50,206 bases of DNA. It comes from Moorena sp. SS36440bin_2. GTDB taxonomy: Bacteria > Cyanobacteriota > Cyanobacteriia > Cyanobacteriales > Coleofasciculaceae. The stretch is taken from positions 1 through 50,206 of the forward strand of contig WTKN01000230.1 of NCBI GenBank assembly GCA_011524395.1, given 5' to 3'. Within the stretch, counting starts at the first letter, position 1. Each line of letters begins with the position of its first letter. Under the pieces are notes generated by a model, which was not told where the DNA came from, did not search any database, and saw nothing but the letters and a program-made list of their open reading frames with translations. The position numbers and the translations under genes are program-made. Below are positions 1,743 to 50,138 of this stretch, piece after piece.

Positions 1743-3006
1743 ATGAATAAATTACTTAAAATAGCCCTCAGCACTACTTCCTTAGTCGGGCTGTGTTTGA
1801 TGGCACTAGTTGTACAAGCCGGTAGCTGGGATAATTTCAAACTCCGTTACTTCCATCTCACTGGCTATCTCCACAACCAAGACCAAGAAATCACTGACCT
1901 CCAAAAACAAAACCTTAATCCAGCCAAAGTCACTCGCATTAATTTAACGGAACTCCTCAATGGTGGTCCCCCAAAAGACGGTATTCCTAGTATCGATAAT
2001 CCTAAGTTTGATACGGCTACAACCACACCATTTTCTAAAACAGAAACTGTGATTGGTGTGGTAATTAATGGAGAAGCCAAAGCCTATCCTTTCGGGATCA
2101 TGAATTGGCATGAATTGGTCAATGACACAGTCGGTGGAGTTAATGTTAGTCTATCCTATTGTCCCCTTTGTGATACTATAGTTGCCTTTAATCGCAGCAA
2201 TACAACCTACGGTGTTTCAGGCAAACTTTATCAAAGTTGCCTAGTCATGTATGACCGTGCCGATGATACCCTTTACTCTCAACCTTGGGGGATGGGTATT
2301 ATTGGTGCTAAAGTCAATCGTAATCTTAAAACAATTCCCGCTATCAAAACTACTCTTGGCGCTTGGTTAAGCAAGTATCCCAACAGTAAAATTCTATCCA
2401 CTGACACAGGTCATAACCGGGATTACTTCAGTTATCCCTATGGTAGTTACTATACCGATAAGCGAATTATTTTTCCAGTCAGAAATCAACAACGACTTAC
2501 GCTTCTTGATGCAGTCGCTCATGGGGAGGGGCTGTGTGCGGAACTTGTTTCCGCACCTTGTAAGCCCCGTGGAAACCACGGCAGTCGCTCATGGTTAGAA
2601 GTTACCGTAAGACAGTTGAGCCTTAATCAATAAGTTTTACCCCTTTTCTGCATAGCCTACCAACCATAAAGGCTCAACTGTCTAAGGTTTCGTCTCCGGG
2701 GGGACCCCCAAGACCGCGCTGCCTTCCCAAGACCGCGCTGCATCGCTTCATCCCAAAGCTATTGTTAGCTATGTGTGGGAAGCGGATCAACAAACCCCTA
2801 AAAACCAATTTTCTGGGGCTAGCTATCAATTTGTCCATGATCAATTAAAAAAAATGGGCGAAAAAGTTGTAGAATTCAATGATCGTCCAATTAGAGCACG
2901 TTGGGATAGCCAACTTCAAACTGTATTAGTAGAAGAATTCGATGGCACTCCCATCCCCAGTTCTACAGCTTTTGCCTTTGTGTATCCAGCTTACTTTGGT
3001 AAATAA
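1743..3006 (+). pseudogene. DUF3179 domain protein gene, interrupted by a 238-bp insertion
   Basis: The reading frame starts at 1743 with a signal peptide (hydrophobic residues about 5-26, VQAGS). It runs through a DUF3179 domain with GVVINGEAKAYPFGIMNWHE, the CPLCDT motif, and GKLYQSCLVMYDR. At codon CTT 2502-2504 it enters an inserted element and stops at 2633. The rest of the domain resumes at 2750 in another frame (HPKAIVSYVWEAD to AYFGK, stop 3004-3006). Removing 2506-2749 joins RNQQRLTL to HPKAIVS in frame. DUF3179 proteins are exported proteins of unknown function. The present gene would give a C-terminally truncated 296-aa product ending in element-encoded residues. Confidence 0.85.
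2506..2743. mobile_element. 238-bp non-autonomous element inserted in DUF3179, 6-bp target duplication
   Basis: CGCTTC is present at 2500-2505 and 2744-2749, directly flanking the insert. The ends are weakly inverted (ATGCAGTCGC near the left, GCGCTGCAT at the right). Inside are a direct repeat GCAGTCGCTCATGG (2511-2524, 2580-2593), a perfect 15-bp hairpin (2610-2624 with 2669-2683) and a GTTTCGTCTCCGGGGG tract. A related copy lies in opposite orientation near 16990-17260. There is no ORF for a transposase, so mobilisation must be in trans. Confidence 0.75.
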
Positions 3007-3059
3007 CCTTACAAACAAGGTACTTCACCCAATTAAAAACTGCAATAAATCATAACTAA

Positions 3060-3187
3060 TATAGCGGTTTCTATCCTAATTAAGTAAACATGATTTTGTC
3101 CCTGTTCCCTGTTCCCTGTTCCCTGCTCCCTGCTCCCTACTCCCTAAAACCTAAAGATTTGTACCTCACCCAATTAAAACCGCTATA
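3060..3187. repeat. Inverted-repeat-bounded segment carrying heptamer repeats
   Basis: TATAGCGGTTT at 3060-3070 and AAACCGCTATA at 3177-3187 form an 11-bp perfect inverted repeat around a run of CCCTGTT/CCCTGCT heptamers (about 3099-3145). The arm also occurs near 1397. The motif GTACCTCACCCAATTAAAA sits just inside the right arm, with a variant at 3020-3040. This looks like a palindromic repeat that contains a short tandemly repeated (STRR) tract. Confidence 0.6.
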
Positions 3188-3968: not shown

Positions 3969-5540
3969 ATGAAAACGCTATATATATGGCTTAGTTCTCT
4001 ACTCCTGTTGTTAGGTTGTATCTTGATTGTGCCTCATGGGGATTTCCGAGAGGTGGAAGCTGTGCCTCGATTTTGGTTAGGTATCGGTGTAATCAGCTTA
4101 GGTTTTATCTTATCTTGGGGATTAAGCGTCTATACTAGATATCCTGCGAAAGTTGGCAACAGGAAACTTGGGATTTCCCAACAAGCAAAAAGAATTAACA
4201 ACAGAATTAACAAAAACAGTATCAAGACAAGACTTTGGCAACAGGTCTATAAACAATTTACCAAATCTCTTAGTATCAAGTACTTCCGAAAAATCAAAAC
4301 TCAGCACTCAGGACTAAATTTTTGGAGTACTACCATCCTAAGCAGGCTGCTACTGCTACCAATGTATCCTGGAGATGATGTATGGCGCTATCTATGGGAA
4401 GGGTATATTCAAACATTAGGGTTTAGTCCATACCATTTGCCACCTAATGCTGCTGAACTGATTCCCTACCATACCGAATGGTGGTCACTAATCAATCATC
4501 CTACTGTTTCTGCTATCTATCCACCAGTAGCGCAATTGGGTTTCCGGTTATTAGCGCTGATTGACCTTAAGGTTTGGTTGTTCAAAATTGCATTTATCTT
4601 AGCTGACTTATTAATCTGTTGGTTACTCAGTCGTCGATTTGGTTATCAACAGGCAATCTTCTATGCCTGGAATCCTTTGATAATTTACTCCTTTGCTGGT
4701 GGTTCTCATTACGACAGTTGGTTTATTTTACCCCTAGTTGCAGCTTGGTTAGTGGTTGACCGAAAAACAGAGAATTTAAGGCAGACAGAAATAAAAGAAA
4801 TAGAGGAAAGATTGGACAGTGGGACAGTAGCAGAAGGCTCCTCATTTACTAACCCCTTGATGTGTTCATCAGATCACTCCCTGACTTGGTGGCACTGGAT
4901 TGCTTCGGCTTTGCTGGTAGGAATTAGTATGGCAGTGAAGTGGATGTCTTTGCCAATTTTAGGCTTTCTGACCTGGCAAGCTTTCCGAAAAGTAGGGGTA
5001 AAACTAGCAATAGTAGTGCTATTGTGCGGTTTCTTACCTTTTGGCATCACTGCTCTCCAATTTTGCTCTCATGGAGAATGTCCTTTGATTCCTACTGGAT
5101 CAGTGTTTGTATCCCATGGTCGCAGTGCTGAATTGATTCCTTATATTGTTAGCGAATATTGGGAACCCTCTCGCTGGGTTAATTGGATTTATGCTTTTCC
5201 CCTGGGGTTAACGGTAAGTTGGCTAATTTTGCGATCGCGCAATTTTCAACAATTCACAGAATGGTACTTTTTTTTCCTACTAATCCTATCTCCGATTATC
5301 CATGCTTGGTACTTCACTTGGATAATTCCTTTTGCTGTTCCTTCTATAAATCTGGGAGTACGTTTAGTCAGTATCTCTACTTTTATTTACTTTGTACTTC
5401 AGCATCGCATGGCTTTAGGTAACTACAGCTGGTATCTAACTCCTCAGGAGCGATTGTGGTTATGGTTACCCTTTGTTTTGGGTTGGTTTTGGACTCATTA
5501 CCGCAATCCTAATGTTGCTCTCAACCAAAACTCAGATTGA
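3969..5540 (+). CDS. Polytopic membrane protein, GT-C type mannosyltransferase-like
   Basis: The 523-aa protein has about ten hydrophobic segments. After the first two helices a basic loop (residues 55-115) is followed by LPMYPGDDVWRYLWEGYIQ. The acidic pair in this loop fits the catalytic loop of GT-C enzymes that use polyprenyl-phosphate sugars. FSPYHLPPNAAEL and INHPTVSAIYPPVAQ are also typical of the GT87/DUF2029-like group. A polar loop near residues 265-305 looks variable. The gene follows a GT2 gene by 13 nt, which supports a shared pathway for surface glycan or glycolipid assembly at the cytoplasmic membrane. The acceptor is unknown. Confidence 0.75.
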   Translation: MKTLYIWLSSLLLLLGCILIVPHGDFREVEAVPRFWLGIGVISLGFILSWGLSVYTRYPAKVGNRKLGISQQAKRINNRINKNSIKTRLWQQVYKQFTKSLSIKYFRKIKTQHSGLNFWSTTILSRLLLLPMYPGDDVWRYLWEGYIQTLGFSPYHLPPNAAELIPYHTEWWSLINHPTVSAIYPPVAQLGFRLLALIDLKVWLFKIAFILADLLICWLLSRRFGYQQAIFYAWNPLIIYSFAGGSHYDSWFILPLVAAWLVVDRKTENLRQTEIKEIEERLDSGTVAEGSSFTNPLMCSSDHSLTWWHWIASALLVGISMAVKWMSLPILGFLTWQAFRKVGVKLAIVVLLCGFLPFGITALQFCSHGECPLIPTGSVFVSHGRSAELIPYIVSEYWEPSRWVNWIYAFPLGLTVSWLILRSRNFQQFTEWYFFFLLILSPIIHAWYFTWIIPFAVPSINLGVRLVSISTFIYFVLQHRMALGNYSWYLTPQERLWLWLPFVLGWFWTHYRNPNVALNQNSD

Positions 5541-5600
5541 TTAGCTTTAATCAAAATTGCCTAGGTTAAGCATATTATCGGCTAAGTCATCTGAAGTACT

Positions 5601-6452
5601 ATGAATACATCCAAGAGATTACTAACCCTAGTTCCAACCCTGATTATTCTGACAAGTTGTACACTTTCCTTACCGATAAATCAAGCACCAGCACAAGAGT
5701 CTGAAGTACAAGTAAATAGAGGTACTGACACGACTCTATTGAATTATGATGACTATGCTACTGTCTTAAAAACCCATGTCAACAATAAAGCGCTAGTTAA
5801 TTACCAAGAATTGCAGAAAATTCCAGAGCAGCTGGAGACGTTTAATACCTCCTTAGGTGCTGTTGAACCTAGCACCTATCAGTCTTGGGATGAAGCAGAA
5901 AAGATTGCTTTCTTGATAAATGCTTACAACTCCTTTACTCTAGAATCAATTATTGATCAAAGCCCGCTCAAAAAGAGTATTCGGGACATTAAAGGAGTCT
6001 GGAAAGGACGCGAATTCAATATTGCTGGAGAATCTAAAACCTTAGATAATATCGAACACAAGACACTGCGAACGCAATTCAACGAGCCCCGAATTCATAT
6101 GGCTTTAGTTTGCGCCGCTATCAGTTGTCCTCCCTTAAGAAAGGAACCATATACTGGGGAAAAACTCGATCAGCAACTGGATGACCAGACACAGAAATTT
6201 ATAGTTAGTCCCCATGGCTTTCGTATTGACCGTCAAAAACGTACCGTATATCTTTCTTCCATCTTTAAGTGGTTTGGGGAAGATTGGAAAGAAACCTATG
6301 GTATCGATGACAAATTTACTGGTAACGCCAATCAACGGGCGGTGTTAAACTTTATCAGTGACTACCTTAGTCCAGAGGATCAGGAGTATCTTGAGCAGGG
6401 TAATTACAAGATAAAATATCTGAACTATGATTGGTCTTTAAATAAACAATAA
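5601..6452 (+). CDS. DUF547 domain-containing lipoprotein
   Basis: The N-terminus is a lipoprotein signal: basic residues, a hydrophobic run, then the lipobox LTSC with Cys20. The rest is a DUF547 domain, with VNYQELQKIPEQLETF, KIAFLINAYNSFTLESII, the RGVWKGREF-like region (IKGVWKGREFNIAG), HKTLRTQFNEPRIHMALVCAAISCPPL, and a C-terminal SSIFKWFGEDW. DUF547 proteins are widespread and biochemically undefined; the conserved Asn, His and Cys residues have prompted suggestions of an enzyme. The gene lies 60 nt after the GT-C gene on the same strand, so co-transcription is possible. The length of 283 aa is usual for the family. Confidence 0.85.
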   Translation: MNTSKRLLTLVPTLIILTSCTLSLPINQAPAQESEVQVNRGTDTTLLNYDDYATVLKTHVNNKALVNYQELQKIPEQLETFNTSLGAVEPSTYQSWDEAEKIAFLINAYNSFTLESIIDQSPLKKSIRDIKGVWKGREFNIAGESKTLDNIEHKTLRTQFNEPRIHMALVCAAISCPPLRKEPYTGEKLDQQLDDQTQKFIVSPHGFRIDRQKRTVYLSSIFKWFGEDWKETYGIDDKFTGNANQRAVLNFISDYLSPEDQEYLEQGNYKIKYLNYDWSLNKQ

Positions 6453-6548
6453 CTAATTAACCATAACCAACAACAATAACCAATTAAGCATAACTAGCTT
6501 GATTAATTGATTATTATAGGGATACGTTTAGGAATTATGATAATTTTT

Positions 6549-6593
6549 GTTCCCTGTTCCCAGATCCGCTGTTCCCAGATCCGCTGTTCCCTT
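6549..6593. repeat. Short tandem repeat tract (GTTCCC/AGATCCGCT)
   Basis: The unit GTTCCCAGATCCGCT is repeated twice and flanked by CTGTTCCC heptamers. It resembles the heptamer tract at 3099-3145 and is a typical cyanobacterial STRR. It lies between the convergent DUF547 and argJ genes. Confidence 0.6.
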
Positions 6594-6656
6594 TGCTATA
6601 AGGATTTGTTATGGTTTATTATTGATTGTTTAAAACGTCTTTGACGACAAGGCTAA

Positions 6657-7898
6657 TCAAGTGGTATATTCCGCGTTAATCTTGACATAGTCATAACTCA
6701 AATCACAACCCCAAGCCTGACCAACACCATGACCATTGCCCACATTAACCTGAATTAAAACTGTATCTTCTTTAAGATAAGCACCAGCAGCAGCCTGCTT
6801 GAGATAATCACTAGCCTGTTGACGGTCAAACCCTAAGGGTTGACCATTGTCCATTAGCAAGACATCCCCTAACTGAATCCGCAGGTTTTCTTGCTCAAAG
6901 GGTACTCCTGCACGGCCAGCGGCTGCAGCAATTCTGCCCCAGTTTGGGTCTCGTCCAAAGATAGCAGACTTCACCAAAGATGACCCAACAATGGTCTTAG
7001 CAATTTGACGAGCGCCTTTATCATCCGGTGCGCCAGTCACTTGGACTTCAATCAAACAGGTTGCCCCTTCTCCATCCCGTGCGATCGCTTTTGCCAAATG
7101 CTGACAGACTGCTGTGAGCATCCCCTCCAACTTCACAGCTGCTGGTCCGATTTCTGTAATCGCTGATGTTCGGGACTGACCATTAGTCAAGGCAATTAGA
7201 GTGTCATTGGTGCTGGTATCCCCATCTACCGTAATTTGATTAAAACTTTTATCCGCTGCCCGCTGTAACATCTGTTGCCACAGGGAAGTAGACACTGCAG
7301 CATCACAGGTTACAAATGCTAGCATAGTCGCCATGTTGGGATGAATCATACCAGAGCCCTTAGCAATACCACCTATCCTGACCGGACGGTCATCAATCAT
7401 GGTTTCCAGAGCAATGGATTTAGTGACTAAATCCGTGGTAATAATCGCTTGAGCTGCTGCATCGGAACCAGTTTCTGATGCTTGTGCTACCAATTGGGGA
7501 ATGCCTGACAATAGAGCATCCATCTTGATGCGTTGACCAATCACCCCCGTCGATGCCAACAAAATCGAATTAGGGGAAACATTGAGTGCTTCACCCAAAG
7601 CGTTAGCACTAGCTAGAGCATCTTGCCAACCCTGCTCACCCGTTGCTGCATTGGCTTGTCCAGCATTACACAAAATAGCACGAGCACTAGCTTTAGACTG
7701 TAAGCGTTGACGGCAATAATCTACACAAGCAGCCCGGACATGACTGGTGGTGAACACCCCAGCTGCGATCGCATCCACCTCTGATAATATCAACCCTAAG
7801 TCTGGCTGACCCGAAGGTTTTAAACCTGCGGTAATCCCTGCTGCCTGATAGCCCCTGGGAGCTGTTATCCCACCACTAATCTCTTGCCAGTCCGACAT
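6657..7898 (-). CDS. argJ: Bifunctional glutamate N-acetyltransferase / amino-acid acetyltransferase ArgJ
   Basis: ArgJ transfers acetyl from N-acetylornithine to glutamate, recycling acetyl groups in arginine synthesis. In the bifunctional form it can also acetylate glutamate from acetyl-CoA. The product has the self-cleavage site in KGSGMIHPNMATMLAF; Thr191 becomes the N-terminal nucleophile of the beta chain. Other family blocks are FTTSHVRAACVDYCR, CNAGQANAATGEQG, the TGVIGQ oxyanion region, TVDGDTSTNDT and GRDPNWGRIAAAAGRAGV. The length of 413 aa is standard. Whether it is mono- or bifunctional cannot be told from sequence alone. The gene is monocistronic here and convergent with DUF547; TGCGATCGC-type octamers lie inside it. 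Confidence 0.95.
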   Translation of the reverse strand: MSDWQEISGGITAPRGYQAAGITAGLKPSGQPDLGLILSEVDAIAAGVFTTSHVRAACVDYCRQRLQSKASARAILCNAGQANAATGEQGWQDALASANALGEALNVSPNSILLASTGVIGQRIKMDALLSGIPQLVAQASETGSDAAAQAIITTDLVTKSIALETMIDDRPVRIGGIAKGSGMIHPNMATMLAFVTCDAAVSTSLWQQMLQRAADKSFNQITVDGDTSTNDTLIALTNGQSRTSAITEIGPAAVKLEGMLTAVCQHLAKAIARDGEGATCLIEVQVTGAPDDKGARQIAKTIVGSSLVKSAIFGRDPNWGRIAAAAGRAGVPFEQENLRIQLGDVLLMDNGQPLGFDRQQASDYLKQAAAGAYLKEDTVLIQVNVGNGHGVGQAWGCDLSYDYVKINAEYTT

Positions 7899-44640: not shown

Positions 44641-45705
44641 ATGGAAGACCAAAAGAATCAAAAGGCTCAAAAGAATCAAAAAAATCAAAAGACTAAAACT
44701 AGAGTCTCCAAAACCTTGAATCTTGTCAGGAACTTTGGCTTAAAGGCCATTCCAATTATGATGGTAAGGAATTCTTTGTTTGAAGAATCCGAACTTACCC
44801 TCAATTTCTTAGTCTTAATCATCAGCTCTTGTTTAATTGCTACCTTTGGACTAGTACTCAACAGTGCTGCGGTGATTATTGGAGCGATGATTATTGCTCC
44901 TCTGATGTTGCCCTTAAGAGGATTGTCCTTTGCTACCTTGGAAGGAGATTGGGAACTATTACGGCGGAGTTTTGTTTCTATTGCTGTAGGCACCCTACTG
45001 GGTATAAGTTGTTCTTGGTTGGTTGGTACAGTTATCGGATTCCCTGAATTTGGAGCCCAAGTTTTAGCTAGAACTAAACCCAATCTAATTGATTTACTGG
45101 TTGCGATCGTGGCCGGGGGAATTAGTGGTTTCTCTAAAATTCGTCCCTCTTTAGAAGATGCGGTACCAGGGACAGCAATTGCCGTAGCCCTAATGCCTCC
45201 CCTTTGTGTGGTTGGATTAACCCTATCCCAGGGAGAATGGGCTTATAGTCAGGGCGCATTTCTCCTTTATATTACTAACCTGATTGGGATTAACCTAGCT
45301 TGTATGATCGTTTATATCTTTAGCGGGTATGCTCAGAGCACTGAACTGAGCCGGTCTTTAAATTGGGGAGTCTCTTTAGTGCTGATTGCTGTGTTAGTGG
45401 TGCCCCTAGGACTTACCTTTTGGGACGTGCTTGAGCAAGGAAGAGTTGAAGAGCCAGTTCAGGAATTGATTAACAGTTCATTGTTTAACAAAGAAGGTGT
45501 TAGAGAAGTTTCTGATTGGAAGATCGATCGGACAAAGAATCCTCCTGAGATCGAAATTGCTATGCGTTCAATAGAACTGATTACACCAGAACAGGTTAAG
45601 GAGTTTGAAGATGCGGTTGAGATTAAGCTAGGTAAACCGTTTAAAGTGAAAGTTGACGTTACTCCATTTATACCAGTGGAATCCCCTAAGCTTAAAGCTA
45701 ATTAA
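44641..45705 (+). CDS. DUF389 family membrane protein
   Basis: The 354-aa protein begins with a low-complexity KNQK-rich tail (residues 2-22, encoded by AAAAGAATC-like repeats). The DUF389 membrane domain follows: LNFLVLIISSCLIATFGLVLNSAAVIIGAMIIAPLMLPLRGLSFATLEGD, GTLLGISCSWLVGTVIG, KPNLIDLLVAIVAGGISGFSKIRPSLEDAVPGTAIAVALMPPLCVVGL and GAFLLYITNLIGINLACMIVY. The C-terminus is a soluble alpha/beta region with VREVSDWKIDRTKNPPEIEI. The family is widespread and uncharacterised; a transport role is only suspected. It stands alone in orientation, between a transporter remnant and a broken GNAT gene. Confidence 0.93.
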   Translation: MEDQKNQKAQKNQKNQKTKTRVSKTLNLVRNFGLKAIPIMMVRNSLFEESELTLNFLVLIISSCLIATFGLVLNSAAVIIGAMIIAPLMLPLRGLSFATLEGDWELLRRSFVSIAVGTLLGISCSWLVGTVIGFPEFGAQVLARTKPNLIDLLVAIVAGGISGFSKIRPSLEDAVPGTAIAVALMPPLCVVGLTLSQGEWAYSQGAFLLYITNLIGINLACMIVYIFSGYAQSTELSRSLNWGVSLVLIAVLVVPLGLTFWDVLEQGRVEEPVQELINSSLFNKEGVREVSDWKIDRTKNPPEIEIAMRSIELITPEQVKEFEDAVEIKLGKPFKVKVDVTPFIPVESPKLKAN

Positions 45706-45922: not shown

Positions 45923-46375
45923 TCAATGCTGTGCCAAAGGTTCCTGTTTCGTAAACTTCAAGCGAAGTACTTGTTTTCCCGTTGGCTCGTGATGCTTTTC
46001 TTCTAAATACTCAAAACCATAACTTGAATAAAACTTACGACCAATCGGATTGTCCTTGAATACTTCGACTTCAAGATTGCCATGGAGTTCTTGGGCTTTA
46101 TTCATGAGTGCCCAGCCTACTCCCGCGCCCTGAAAAAATGGCTGTACAAATATTGCTCCAACTTCAGAACCAATTAGAGCTATAAAACCAATAACTTGTC
46201 CGTTATTCTCAGCTACCCAGGTATCAGCATTGGGTAAATACACATTCGGAATGTTGTAACGTTCTAGTTCTAAAAATTATTCTGTTAAAAATGGATGAGC
46301 TATCTTTGATGCATTTTCCCATGAAGACATGACATCATTTAAGTCACTATCTTTATAGTGTCTAATGATCAACAC
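45923..46375 (-). pseudogene. GNAT family N-acetyltransferase, interrupted by an in-frame TAA
   Basis: On the minus strand a GTG at 46375 opens VLIIRHYKDSDLNDVMSSWE, then NASKIAHPFLTE, and TAA follows (46277-46279). The same frame continues as FLELERYNIPNVYLPNADTW, then VAENNGQVIGFIALIGSEVG, IFVQPFFQGAGVGWALMNKA and EVEVFKDNPIGRKFYSSYGF. Relatives usually have HPFLTEEFL, so a single GAA to TAA change explains the stop. The acetyl-CoA site QGAGVG is intact. The remaining 106-aa frame (from the GTG at 46243) lacks the first strand and helix of the fold. A sequencing error is possible. Confidence 0.75.
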
Positions 46376-46722: not shown

Positions 46723-47397
46723 ATGATTAGTACAATCAGTAATACTGGAAAATTATTCACTATTGGTCATTCTAATCTTAGTATTGAGGATTTTATTGCT
46801 TTACTAGAACAGCATGGAATTACGGCGGTGGCTGATGTGCGATCGCATCCTTACAGCCGTTACTTACCTCATTTTAGTCAAGCCCCCCTCAAGGCTGAAC
46901 TATTGTCGGCAGGAATTCGCTATGTATTTCTGGGTAAGGAGTTGGGAGCAAGACCGGCTGATCTCAGTTGTTATGTTGGTGGTAAAGCGTTATATGAAAA
47001 AATTGCCGCCACTGACCTGTTTTCAGCGGGTCTTAAACGGGTAATTCAAGGGGCTGAAACGTACCAAATTGCTTTGATGTGTGCTGAAAAAGACCCGATC
47101 ACTTGTCATCGGACAATTTTAGTCTGCCAACATTTAGTGAAATCGGGGTTAGAGATTAATCATATTCTCAATGATGGCAGCTTAGAGTCCCATCAGGAGT
47201 TAGAAGAAAGGCTGCTCAGCTCTCATGGGTTAAATGATTCCCAAATTAAACAACCGAAGCAACTTTCCCTATTTGATGATGCTACATCTATGGATAACTG
47301 GGAAAATCGCTCTCGCGAGGATAGACTTAAGGAAGTTTATCATAGGCAAGGGGATACTATTGCTTATCTAGCAAAGGGAATAGGGAGTAGGGAGTAG
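46723..47397 (+). CDS. DUF488 domain-containing protein (first of two)
   Basis: DUF488 signature: FTIGHSNLSIEDFI (TIGHS at 13-17), ADVRSHPYSRYLPHFS (Asp38, Arg40, Arg46), YVFLGKELGARPAD and LMCAEKDPITCHRTIL (Cys120, Cys128, His129, Arg130). Conserved Cys, His and Arg suggest an enzyme; the reaction is unknown. The C-terminus beyond residue 165 is a tail with RLKEVYHRQGDTIAYLA. The last residues GIGSRE are coded by a GGGAGTA tandem repeat (47374-47408) that also supplies the stop. The ribosome site GGAGG precedes the ATG. A second DUF488 gene follows 44 nt later on the same strand. Confidence 0.9.
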   Translation: MISTISNTGKLFTIGHSNLSIEDFIALLEQHGITAVADVRSHPYSRYLPHFSQAPLKAELLSAGIRYVFLGKELGARPADLSCYVGGKALYEKIAATDLFSAGLKRVIQGAETYQIALMCAEKDPITCHRTILVCQHLVKSGLEINHILNDGSLESHQELEERLLSSHGLNDSQIKQPKQLSLFDDATSMDNWENRSREDRLKEVYHRQGDTIAYLAKGIGSRE

Positions 47398-47408
47398 GGA
47401 GTAGGGAT
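47374..47408. repeat. GGGAGTA heptamer tract at the end of the first DUF488 gene
   Basis: AATAGGGAGTAGGGAGTAGG repeats a 7-bp unit about four times and encodes the last residues and the stop of the first DUF488 gene. It separates the two DUF488 genes. Confidence 0.7.
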
Positions 47409-47441
47409 AAAAAAAATGAGTGTACCTCATAAGTAATAGAT

Positions 47442-47888
47442 ATGAATCAAACTATTAATTTATTTACAATTGGGTTTACTAAAAAGAGTGCTCAACAGTT
47501 CTTTGAGCTTCTGATTAATGCTGGAGTAAGGCGAGTTATCGATACGAGACTCAATAATAAATCTCAATTAGCTGGTTTCACTAAAAACAAAGATTTTGAA
47601 TACTTTTTGCACCAAATTGGGAATATTGACTATACACATCGTCTAGAATTGGCTCCGACTAAGGATATCCTAAATACCTATAAAAAAAATAATGGTGATT
47701 GGGAAACCTATGAAAAACAGTTCTTACAATTAATTACAGAGCGTGAAATCGAAAAGACGGTATCACCAGATTTATTAGATGGTAGCTGTTTGCTCTGTAG
47801 TGAACCTACTCCCCATAACTGTCATCGCCGTTTAGTAGCAGAATATCTGAGTCAAAAATTGGGAACTATAAAGATAGTTCACCTATGA
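47442..47888 (+). CDS. DUF488 domain-containing protein (second)
   Basis: Shorter paralogue (148 aa): LFTIGFTKKSAQQFFELLI (TIGFTKK at 9-15), RVIDTRLNNKSQLAGFTKNKDFEYFL (Asp34, Arg36) and CLLCSEPTPHNCHRRLVAEYL (Cys119, Cys127, His128, Arg129). The conserved Asp/Arg and Cys...CHR match the first copy, but the second has a different core and belongs to another branch. Two divergent DUF488 copies side by side suggest a heteromeric or two-step function (inference). A dual-OB-like protein gene starts 121 nt later on the same strand. Confidence 0.88.
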   Translation: MNQTINLFTIGFTKKSAQQFFELLINAGVRRVIDTRLNNKSQLAGFTKNKDFEYFLHQIGNIDYTHRLELAPTKDILNTYKKNNGDWETYEKQFLQLITEREIEKTVSPDLLDGSCLLCSEPTPHNCHRRLVAEYLSQKLGTIKIVHL

Positions 47889-48009
47889 TTTATCCCAAAT
47901 CCCCTTTGCTAAGACCATAGAAAAATATCAAAGTCGTTGCATAACTAAACCGGATTTGGCGATCTAGGTCAGTAGTCTAAACTAACCTTACTTGGGATTA
48001 GATAGCAGC

Positions 48010-48720
48010 ATGACTCAGATTATTTGCTTGGCTAACTCCTGGAAGCGTGGCGATAGATGTATCGCTGGAATTAATTCTCTGAAATGTCAATGGATTCGTC
48101 CTGTATCTGATTTACCGGATGGTCGCATTCCGAAACCAATGCGTCAAATTGCGGGAAGGGAACCAACGTTACTGGATATTTTAGATATTCCTTTGGCTAA
48201 AACTGGACCCGACTTTGGCTTTGAGTGTGAAAATCTTTTGGTATTACCAGGACAATGGCGACGAGTAGGACAAGTTCCCGCTGGATATCTGAATAAGTTT
48301 TGTAGCAGGGAAAAATACATTCTCCATAATAATGAGCGCTATGTAACGGTGAGTTTCTTGCAGTCATTACCGGTAGAGCAACGCTGTACACTCCAACTGG
48401 TGAAAGCTGTGGAATTCTTGGTTCAACCTATTGGTATCAGACGTGAGGGTGTAGAAAAATGGGAAGGTTCACTGGTAACAGATTTTGGACAAGAATTGAC
48501 TGCTACGATTACTGATCCGATATTTGTGAGGTATTTAGAGTTAGGGTATCGACCGCAAAATCAGTGTTTGGTTACGGTTAGTCTCAGCATGCCTTGGCTA
48601 CCTGATCATTGGACAAAGGATGGTGACCCTTGTTGGAAGTTGATAGCGGGTGTTATTGAATTACCTAACAAATCCGGGAATAAACTTAGACTCGGAATGG
48701 ATGATGAGCTTCCTTTTTAG
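48010..48720 (+). CDS. Dual OB-fold-like domain protein
   Basis: I start at the ATG at 48010 (MTQIICLANSWKRGDRCIAG); a TTG at 47992 opens the frame but lacks support. The 236-aa protein begins IICLANSWKRGDRCIAGINSLKCQWIRPVSDLPDG, which I associate with dual-OB (DuOB) proteins. Two beta-rich halves follow (about 1-95 and 130-225), the second with LGYRPQNQCLVTVSLSMPWLPD. OB folds bind nucleic acids or oligosaccharides. It lies after two DUF488 genes and 318 nt before an AAA ATPase gene. A nucleic-acid-sensing role in a conflict module is an inference from neighbours. Confidence 0.72.
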   Translation: MTQIICLANSWKRGDRCIAGINSLKCQWIRPVSDLPDGRIPKPMRQIAGREPTLLDILDIPLAKTGPDFGFECENLLVLPGQWRRVGQVPAGYLNKFCSREKYILHNNERYVTVSFLQSLPVEQRCTLQLVKAVEFLVQPIGIRREGVEKWEGSLVTDFGQELTATITDPIFVRYLELGYRPQNQCLVTVSLSMPWLPDHWTKDGDPCWKLIAGVIELPNKSGNKLRLGMDDELPF

Positions 48721-49037
48721 GAATAAAATTTAAAGGAATAAAACCTGGGTTGATGTTAGTCCATCATGGATATATTTGCCTAGCAATAATGAGAGTTTTA
48801 TTTATTTTTGCTACAGAGGATACGGGAATCAGGTCATAAGGTGATAAACTGATAATGTAAGGCGGTGGAATAGGAGATTAAGGTGTACTAATACTTTGTG
48901 TAATTGGTATTACTAGTAACAGATGCAATTGCATCTCTATTAACTAGCTTCCTATAATCAACTAAATCATGGCTTTAGCATTGTTTACTATTCACAAAAA
49001 TTAATGGATAATCCCTAAGTAACCATGGGAGACCCTA
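48721..49037. other. Gap before the AAA ATPase gene
   Basis: No gene and no clear repeat are seen in 317 bp of AT-rich sequence. It may hold the promoter of the ATPase gene, so the ATPase could be a separate unit rather than part of an operon with the DUF488 genes. Confidence 0.45.
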
Positions 49038-50138
49038 GTGATGCTAGTTGAGTTCAGCGTAGAAAATTATCGCTCATTTAAAGAGCGCCAGACCTTGAGC
49101 ATGGTGGCATCTAATAAAAAAACTGGGCGGAATAGCAATAGTTTCCCGATGCCTAATGTCAAGTCTCTGCGCCTACTCACTAGCGCTGTGGTCTACGGTC
49201 CTAATGCTTCGGGGAAGAGCAATCTGGTGCGTGCAATGCAGACCATGCGTCAGATTGTGCTAGAGTCCGCTACTGGCATGCAGCTTGGCAGTAGATGGAA
49301 TATCGAACCATTTCGCTTAAATGTTGACTGCCAGCAGAAGCCAAGCTGTTTTGAAATTATTTTCATTCAGGATAATATTCGCTACCAATACGGATTTTCC
49401 TTAGACCAAGAGCTGGTGTATGAAGAGTGGCTAATCGCGTATCCCAAAGGACGTGCTCAAACTTGGTTTGAGCGTAACTATCGTTCAGAAGAACAGGAGT
49501 ATGATTGGTATTTTGGGCGAGGGCTGAAAGGCGAGAAGGAACGTATTAAGGGTTTTGTTCGCTCAAATTCTTTATTTCTATCTCATGCCGCCCAAAATAA
49601 CCATCCTCAGTTAGGAAAGATATTTATCTGGTTTAGCTCTAAGTTAAAGTTAATTCCATCAAAGTTTCAAGGCTATTCTAACTTTACGGCTTTAAAATTT
49701 GATAGATATACTAATTATAGTGACAATTTTTTGAAATTAATCAAGGGAAATGATTTCGGAATCTCAAATGGTATCCAACGATTATTTGAAATTGGAGGAT
49801 ATTGGATAAATGCTTTGGATAATGGAGAAATTTTAATTATTGATGAACTAGACCGCAGCTTACATTCAGAAATATCAACTTATTTAATCAAGGAGTTTAA
49901 TAACCAAACAGCTAATCAAAATAATGCTCAATTGATCGTTACCACCCACGATACGACTTTCCTAGATCGAGACATAGTAAATCAAGACCAGATATGGTTC
50001 ACAGAAAAAGATAGTAACAATAGCACTCACCTCTATTCCTTACTAGATTTTAAAATTCGTGAGGATGAATCTCTACAGAAAGGCTACCTCAAAGGTCGAT
50101 ATGGAGCGGTTCCCTTTGTTAGTGGGCTGGATAGTTAG
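49038..50138 (+). CDS. AAA family ATPase (AAA_15/RloA-like), middle part shortened
   Basis: The N-terminus MLVEFSVENYRSFKERQTLSM is typical of SMC-like/OLD-related ATPases. Walker A is VVYGPNASGKSN (residues 51-62). The C-terminal half has GIQRLFEIGGYWINALDN (ABC-signature region), Walker B EILIIDELDRSLH, QLIVTTHDTTFLDR, QIWFTEKD and the family ending LQKGYLKGRYGAVPFV. Relatives I know usually have a longer helical insertion between the two halves and a SxGTQRL motif; here LIKGNDFGISNGIQRL joins directly, so 60-90 residues may be missing. Members act in RloA/B, retron and Abi-type defence. No partner gene follows before the window ends. Confidence 0.83.
   Translation: MMLVEFSVENYRSFKERQTLSMVASNKKTGRNSNSFPMPNVKSLRLLTSAVVYGPNASGKSNLVRAMQTMRQIVLESATGMQLGSRWNIEPFRLNVDCQQKPSCFEIIFIQDNIRYQYGFSLDQELVYEEWLIAYPKGRAQTWFERNYRSEEQEYDWYFGRGLKGEKERIKGFVRSNSLFLSHAAQNNHPQLGKIFIWFSSKLKLIPSKFQGYSNFTALKFDRYTNYSDNFLKLIKGNDFGISNGIQRLFEIGGYWINALDNGEILIIDELDRSLHSEISTYLIKEFNNQTANQNNAQLIVTTHDTTFLDRDIVNQDQIWFTEKDSNNSTHLYSLLDFKIREDESLQKGYLKGRYGAVPFVSGLDS

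Follow-up and report, generated by a model that had tools for sequence, protein, structure and literature searches.

The window analysed here is a stretch of 50,206 nucleotides, positions 1 to 50,206 of contig WTKN01000230.1 from the cyanobacterium Moorena sp. SS36440bin_2. Near its right end lies a trio of adjacent genes, which encode two DUF488 proteins (DUF488-1 and DUF488-2) and DuOB, a protein with tandem oligonucleotide/oligosaccharide-binding (OB) folds. Judged by sequence, the trio is a member of PDC-M45, a candidate already listed in PADLOC. We assign a probability of about 0.6 to the reading that it is a stand-alone three-protein conflict module, in which DuOB would bind nucleic acid and the DUF488 pair would perform phosphate or sugar-phosphate chemistry. 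A defence role of the trio is likely.

The window trio fits all component models of PDC-M45 in PADLOC-DB 2.0.0, which already lists its components A, B and C: A corresponds to DuOB (3.5e-25), B to DUF488-1 (2.7e-75) and C to DUF488-2 (1.5e-67), encoded side by side by adjacent same-strand genes at 46723-48720. An entirely undescribed cluster was therefore rejected as an interpretation, because PADLOC already holds models for the trio. A preliminary description of this DNA had called the cluster uncharacterised, and this still applies in the sense that our literature search found no characterisation of the trio. Its novelty does not stand, as PADLOC-DB lists PDC-M45 and Pfam names both DuOB and DUF488-N3a. 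Possibly new are the exchange of component B for a DUF4326 protein, the fusion of DUF488-1 with DUF488-2, and the strict pairing of DUF488-2 with DuOB.

The same description had placed four same-strand open reading frames (ORFs) here, the trio and a following ATPase gene, and all four are present. DUF488-1 (46723..47397, + strand; PDC-M45B-like) has 224 amino acids, with a C-terminal extension past the DUF488 core, and matches Pfam DUF488 over residues 20-134 (2e-23). It falls in the broad DUF488 family only (83.7 bits versus a cut-off of 22.2) and stays below the DUF488-N3a cut-off (14.4 versus 27 bits). DUF488-2 (47442..47888, + strand; PDC-M45C-like, 148 amino acids) matches Pfam DUF488 (1.3e-20) and belongs to the "active" subclade DUF488-N3a (1.1e-7), scoring 32.6 bits, above the curated cut-off of 27 bits. 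DuOB (48010..48720, + strand; PDC-M45A-like) has 236 amino acids from its ATG and matches Pfam DuOB at 8.5e-36 and 124.4 bits, against a curated cut-off of 27 bits. Its ORF spans 47992-48720 from an alternative TTG start, and the ATG at 48010 agrees better with the relatives. The two DUF488 genes are separated by 44 nt, DUF488-2 and the DuOB ATG by 121 nt, and a gap of 317 nt precedes the ATPase. At E ≤ 0.001, this genome has just two DUF488 matches and one DuOB match, i.e. those of the window trio.

The trio as a unit in cyanobacteria

The cyanobacterial survey covered 386 genomes from 142 genera, with profile searches for DuOB, DUF488-1 and DUF488-2. DuOB matched in 43 of the genomes and 28 of the genera. 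Besides the window, 40 DuOB loci were fetched, leaving out fragments in genomes G070 and G332, and gene neighbourhoods were scanned in 51 sources, most of them with approximately 8 kb per side, using profiles built from the window genes. DUF488-1, DUF488-2 and DuOB occurred together in 35 of the 40 fetched loci (L045-L079) and in the window, so that a near-intact DuOB had both DUF488s beside it in 36 of 36 cyanobacterial loci. The remaining five fetched loci (L080-L084) hold broken copies. DuOB is slightly shortened in L076, near a contig end. In L051, DUF488-2 (2691-3145) carries a frameshift near its start, either genuine or due to a sequencing error, and the reading frames of DUF488-1 and DuOB are intact. 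Another scan covered genomes of named species and gave 10 loci, all 10 with the trio and one of them from a Hydrogenedentota bin; this set overlaps the first, with two loci apparently common to both. The trio is thus a true unit, and the possibility raised in the preliminary description, that its genes never recur together, did not hold, as the neighbourhood check found the DUF488-DUF488-OB order to recur widely.

Co-occurrence at the genome level was tight, too. DUF488-2 scored at least 190 bits in 39 of the 386 genomes, and 38 of these match DuOB as well, with a broken DuOB in G241 and G332. The sole exception, G174, has an interrupted DUF488-1 and a DuOB reduced to an 18-residue trace. DUF488-1 scored at least 240 bits in 42 genomes, 36 of them with a DuOB match; among the other six, five carry DUF488-1 solo and one has a truncated DUF488-2, with DuOB gone. 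Three solo copies (L151-L153) come from the same genus as the trio copies L067 and L072, and the gene that follows them is 71-88% identical at the protein level to the gene after the trio of L041, whose contig is as long as that of L067. Therefore, DUF488-2 and DuOB were probably lost from, or added to, one and the same site in this genus. In L082, a single ORF (2109-2915) combines the first part of DUF488-1 with the second half of DuOB and has no DUF488-2, which fits an internal deletion.

The closest DuOB relatives of the window copy are Moorena loci, with 93-97% DuOB identity. The ratios of nonsynonymous to synonymous substitution rates (dN/dS) between the window and the three Moorena copies were 0.13-0.17 for DUF488-1, 0.16-0.43 for DUF488-2 and 0.22-0.25 for DuOB. 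For DUF488-1 in the solo comparison, they were 0.24-0.30 between solo copies, 0.19-0.24 between solo and trio copies, and 0.13 between two trio copies. The module is accessory, being patchily distributed (43/386 genomes) and decayed in several copies. DuOB was found in none of 14 control genomes, six of which have the broad DUF488 family.

Plasmid and prophage copies, partner exchange and defence context

The module is not restricted to cyanobacteria. In the plasmid collection, 23 records matched a DuOB query from genome G177 and one matched the window DuOB. Among the 12 of the 23 records whose contexts were examined, the content was DuOB-DUF488-DUF488 in three and DuOB-DUF488-DUF4326 in nine; one of the 12, NZ_AP026896.1 (4.9 Mb), although filed as a plasmid, looks chromosomal. 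The DuOB region is interrupted in two DUF4326-type loci, L089 and L095. In L089 (plasmid pA172, 132-5820), an ISEcp1 transposase gene and the beta-lactamase gene blaCMY-31 split a shortened DuOB from the DUF488/DUF4326 pair. On a plasmid of 4167 bp, the three longest ORFs are DuOB, DUF488 and DUF4326. This 4.2-kb plasmid codes mainly for the cassette, which therefore probably needs no further dedicated partner. In four of 5426 Escherichia coli genomes (hits H25-H28), a DUF4326 gene matched the end of the plasmid cassette at the DNA level, and the rest of the query was unmatched.

A scan of IMG/VR with a DUF488-2 alignment gave 38 loci, some of them near-copies of each other. DuOB adjoins DUF488-2 in 36, with weak matches (22-23 bits) in L109 and L131 and a short ORF in L121. 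The two loci without it are L108, which begins with DUF488-2, and L134, where no DuOB was found. The third slot was occupied by DUF488-1 in 12 loci and by DUF4326 in 24, and was unread at the contig end in two. A DUF4326-type enzyme can hence occupy one position of the DUF488 pair. Portal, terminase and head proteins are encoded around the viral loci, which marks several of them as genuine contigs of prophage or phage origin.

A tree of 88 DUF488-2 proteins, many forks of which are weakly supported, requires two changes of the partner label, compared to a mean of 25 after shuffling. The exchange of DUF488-1 and DUF4326 therefore looks like an old one that follows clades, L105 being a single isolated second case. 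The swap-partner DUF4326 protein that we scanned has a SLOG-like N-terminus, at a sub-threshold score. In L131, DUF488-1 and DUF488-2 are naturally fused into one protein of 377 amino acids; the fusion adjoins a divergent DuOB-like protein that is unrecognised by Pfam (5317-7247).

Some copies lie near known defence genes, and several of these neighbourhoods fit a role in conflict or defence. In L097, the gene order is BrxC, PglX, DuOB, DUF488-1, DUF488-2, PglZ and BrxL, which places the trio within a bacteriophage exclusion (BREX) locus, and the pglZ ORF begins within the end of DUF488-2. In its relative L098, PglX (split) and the trio are followed by PglZ, which shares 80% identity with the L097 protein, and by BrxL. 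BrxC was not recognised in L098, where the candidate ORF before pglX is unlike the BrxC part of L097. As the two loci are close relatives, the link to BREX may represent a single event, and the BREX-bearing contig from the viral collection may be a genomic island. Within approximately 8 kb of the plasmid copies we found, in one record each, Cas1/Csx16/Csm6, a cyclic-oligonucleotide-based anti-phage signalling system (CBASS) cyclase with HORMA, viperin, and a NotI-type restriction-modification system; other contexts among the 12 showed no obvious defence gene. In the CBASS cyclase/HORMA record (L090, 6367-7562), the trio is immediately preceded, on its upstream side, by genes for a helix-turn-helix (HTH) protein and a CapP-type ImmA/IrrE protease. 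An HTH/CapP-type pair is known to place CBASS under DNA-damage-triggered control, and by analogy its position in L090 hints at a similar control.

Active sites, proposed mechanism and rival explanations

Both DUF488 proteins have invariant candidate active sites, which agrees with the Asp/Arg and Cys...CysHisArg motifs noticed in the preliminary description. In DUF488-1, D38, R40, C120, E122 and C128-H129-R130 were identical in 46 of 46 aligned rows; the stretch C120-x-E122...C128-H129-R130 is encoded at 47080..47112 on the + strand. In DUF488-2, D34, R36, C116, C119, S120, E121 and C127-H128-R129-R130 were identical in 52 of 52 rows, and C116-x2-C119-S-E...C127-H128-R129-R130 is encoded at 47787..47831 on the + strand. 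These alignments leave out the broken or cut copies of L076 and L080-L084, proteins of at most 110 amino acids, and identical copies. Among plasmid and viral copies, the motif was present in 14/14 DUF488-1, 49/50 DUF488-2 and 33/33 DUF4326 partner proteins. The one DUF488-2 exception is L134, which has lost the C-terminal half and lacks DuOB. There (5986-6474), an unlike sequence with further Cys residues stands in place of the half that would carry the CHR motif.

AlphaFold2 models were obtained for DuOB and for DUF488-2; the latter was modelled by itself rather than as the L131 fusion, as the alignment for the fusion put DUF488-1 rows on the DUF488-2 half. In the DUF488-2 model, with a predicted local distance difference test score (pLDDT) of 88.7, strand 115-119 ends at C119 and a helix starts at H128-R129-R130. 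This predicted arrangement, Cys at the strand end, a loop and Arg at the helix start, is the layout of a phosphatase loop. The fold neighbours of the model were PRL-1, PRL-3 and diphthine synthase at Z 6-7, and the best row was the CbiL methyltransferase (Z 7.8, root-mean-square deviation 3.8 over 120 residues), all below the safe match level. For DuOB, the model (pLDDT 91.5, predicted template modelling score 0.88) is beta-rich and both of its halves align to OB folds. Its fold neighbours, all weak, were POT1, telomere-end-binding, HIN, single-stranded DNA-binding protein and BrxL OB folds. A match of DuOB to a solved protein was rejected, because phmmer and profile matches were at chance level and the fold searches returned only generic OB proteins. 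The DUF488 sequence searches against solved proteins gave nothing convincing. To our knowledge, DUF488 is a large enzyme family without an assigned reaction. A paper on a DUF488 clade reportedly predicts DNA-end-processing conflict systems.

In the mechanism that we propose, DuOB would, judging by its fold, bind nucleic acid, most plausibly single-stranded DNA, DNA ends or RNA that becomes accessible when a phage or plasmid invades. The preliminary description's idea of a sensor with two enzymes likewise stays hypothetical. DUF488-1 and DUF488-2 would form a heterodimeric enzyme, as suggested by the natural fusion in L131 and by their near-constant co-occurrence. Phosphate or sugar-phosphate chemistry at the two thiol (Cys) active sites would then target the nucleic acid bound by DuOB, or a nucleotide freed from it, so that the invader or the infected cell would be blocked. 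The chemical step leans on the DNA-end-processing prediction reported for the DUF488 clade and on published predictions for DUF4326 proteins. The latter are predicted to process terminal phosphates on the ribose of ADP-ribose or its breakdown products (PMC9503650), and to bridge NAD+ signalling and DNA modification (PMC7824862).

A more specific version, tentative and on balance doubtful, is that of a stand-alone effector with a chemistry new to defence, in which the tandem-OB protein presents invader ends to a two-enzyme thiol complex with one exchangeable slot. If true, the exchange between DUF488 and SLOG-like DUF4326 would alter the reaction or the trigger, while the sensor and the core enzyme persist. 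The swap offers an internal comparison, as the constant parts, DuOB and DUF488-2, should carry the core function. Furthermore, a module this small, with invariant active sites, a nearly fixed partner and a size that fits a 4-kb plasmid, makes both the DUF488 reaction and the defence role directly testable.

Several observations weigh against a conflict module. All structural matches are weak: the Foldseek searches with the DuOB and DUF488-2 models gave no match at E ≤ 0.001, and the best Z values in the fold comparisons were 7.3 and 7.8. DuOB was found in none of 50,697 phage records with either of the two queries (window and G177). DUF488-1 may also have a separate function, given that five genomes retain it without the other two genes. 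The flanks of the cyanobacterial trios matched 54 PADLOC families among 128 genes, compared to 19 among 126 control genes of the same 16 genomes, yet these counts are by family, and many of the 54 are overlapping models of one gene. The control genes themselves matched defence models, too, and the enrichment in defence genes is moderate and only suggestive. A PADLOC match at 1e-10 was found for three of ten further cyanobacterial flank proteins, and in a scan of the window beyond its first 44 kb, the AbiLi-like ATPase was the sole known defence gene beside the trio. Several copies in one cyanobacterial family have chromosomal genes of a housekeeping type nearby, among them those for an NADH:quinone-oxidoreductase-type subunit and DUF1257, which points toward vertical inheritance with losses at a fixed site rather than mobility; mobility as a general rule is thereby weakened. 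In addition, we found no literature with an experiment on PDC-M45. The PDC sets derive from a guilt-by-embedding screen, and most are without validation (PMC12988326). For two other PDC systems, a native-host assay gave no defence in that model (PMC12409345).

These observations leave room for other functions. The trio could resemble a toxin/antitoxin system, in which DuOB and DUF488-2 would be harmful and the swappable DUF488-1 or DUF4326 would restrain or reverse them. This would explain why almost all damaged cyanobacterial loci that were read have a disrupted or missing DuOB (L080-L084, L151-L158, G332), why a near-intact DuOB without DUF488-1 occurs in 0/36 cyanobacterial loci, and why five genomes have kept DUF488-1 alone and uninterrupted; the 4.2-kb plasmid that codes mainly for the module would suit it as well. 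A system that is merely useless without DuOB would, however, give the same pattern. Moreover, L051 retains DuOB and DUF488-1 beside a frameshifted DUF488-2, both DUF488-1 and DUF4326 have full active-site motifs, the L131 fusion is easier to explain with two cooperating enzymes than with an enzyme and its inhibitor, and DUF488-2 persists in L157 and G332, in which DuOB and DUF488-1 are damaged or largely missing. We regard the toxin/antitoxin reading as unlikely. An equally improbable alternative is that the module modifies the ends or bases of the carrier's own nucleic acid, as an anti-restriction device or as the self-marking component of a defence system, instead of attacking the invader. 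Such self-marking would agree with the adjacency of the trio to the pglX methylase gene in both BREX loci, with its position near a restriction-modification system, and with its presence on plasmids and prophage-like contigs. Against it, no shared nuclease partner emerged among the neighbours, where the largest non-trio cluster, a 2TM-domain protein, reached 10 of the 51 sources. Moreover, the pair of BREX contigs is so closely related that it may count as a single event.

Less likely still is a housekeeping function in nucleic-acid repair or nucleotide metabolism, unrelated to conflict. Here one could point to the housekeeping-type genes next to the trio in one cyanobacterial family, to purifying selection on the trio, and to the wide occurrence of the broad DUF488 family in cellular genomes (6/14 controls). 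A housekeeping function is nevertheless difficult to reconcile with a patchy presence in 43/386 genomes, with several copies decayed, with carriage by small plasmids, prophage-like contigs and among BREX genes, and with the lack of DuOB in all 14 control genomes. The three-protein conflict module is the reading that we favour.

Neighbouring genes and comparison with known systems

Upstream of the trio are a DUF389 membrane protein gene (44641-45705), conserved in position in all three Moorena loci, and a short GNAT acetyltransferase gene (45923-46243), both named by Pfam. With these and the ATPase downstream as its nearest genes, the window copy does not lie among BREX genes in the scanned end of the window. 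The surroundings of the trio had 10 promoter-like sites (shuffled mean 11.0), five terminator-like sites (shuffled mean 2.9) and no Rfam matches. The contig stops at the last base of the window, and so the right flank was read in the relatives.

The ATPase gene (49038..50138, + strand) encodes 366 amino acids and matches AAA_21 (6.5e-33), AAA_15 (7e-11) and the PADLOC AbiLi model (1.1e-93). The preliminary description had proposed an OLD/RloA-like ATPase as a possible member of the cluster. The AAA_15 ATPase was borne out, as an AAA_21/AbiLi-like protein; the OLD part was not, since the Pfam scan of the 366-residue protein gave AAA-type and other P-loop ATPase families only and no TOPRIM domain. 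Nor did membership hold up. Among the 51 sources, the ATPase profile matched only the window and three Moorena loci (L035, L036, L037). The protein has 366 amino acids in the window and in L035, 447 in L036 and 445 in L037; the window copy, with a gap at approximately 49761-49766, is without an internal block of approximately 80 residues present in L036 and L037, and L035 is shortened, too. On the basis of the neighbourhood scan and this internal deletion, the ATPase was rejected as a fourth member, and within our sample it is not part of the module. A four-gene system with the ATPase as an NTP-driven switch would fit its position after the trio in 4/4 Moorena-type loci. Yet the scan did not detect the gene in any of the remaining 47 sources, most with approximately 8 kb on each side, about 80 residues are gone from two of the four copies, and its dN/dS (0.32-0.38) is above the values of DUF488-1 and DuOB, which makes such a system very improbable.

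In everything that we compared, the window trio showed no departure from PDC-M45. The PDC-M45 B model does not cover the relatives that carry DUF4326 in the place of B, and a DUF4326 protein from a Klebsiella plasmid had no PADLOC matches. The neighbouring ATPase resembles AbiLi, as matched by the PADLOC model, and differs from OLD-type ATPases in that it is without a Pfam TOPRIM domain, is internally shortened, and lies outside the trio. With the rhodanese-phosphatase superfamily, the predicted DUF488-2 model has in common the Cys at the end of a strand, the loop, and the Arg at the start of a helix. Finally, the plasmid and prophage copies share DUF4326, in the swap slot, with the DUF4326 proteins (with SLOG) of phages and giant viruses, whereas DUF488-1 takes this position in the window copy.

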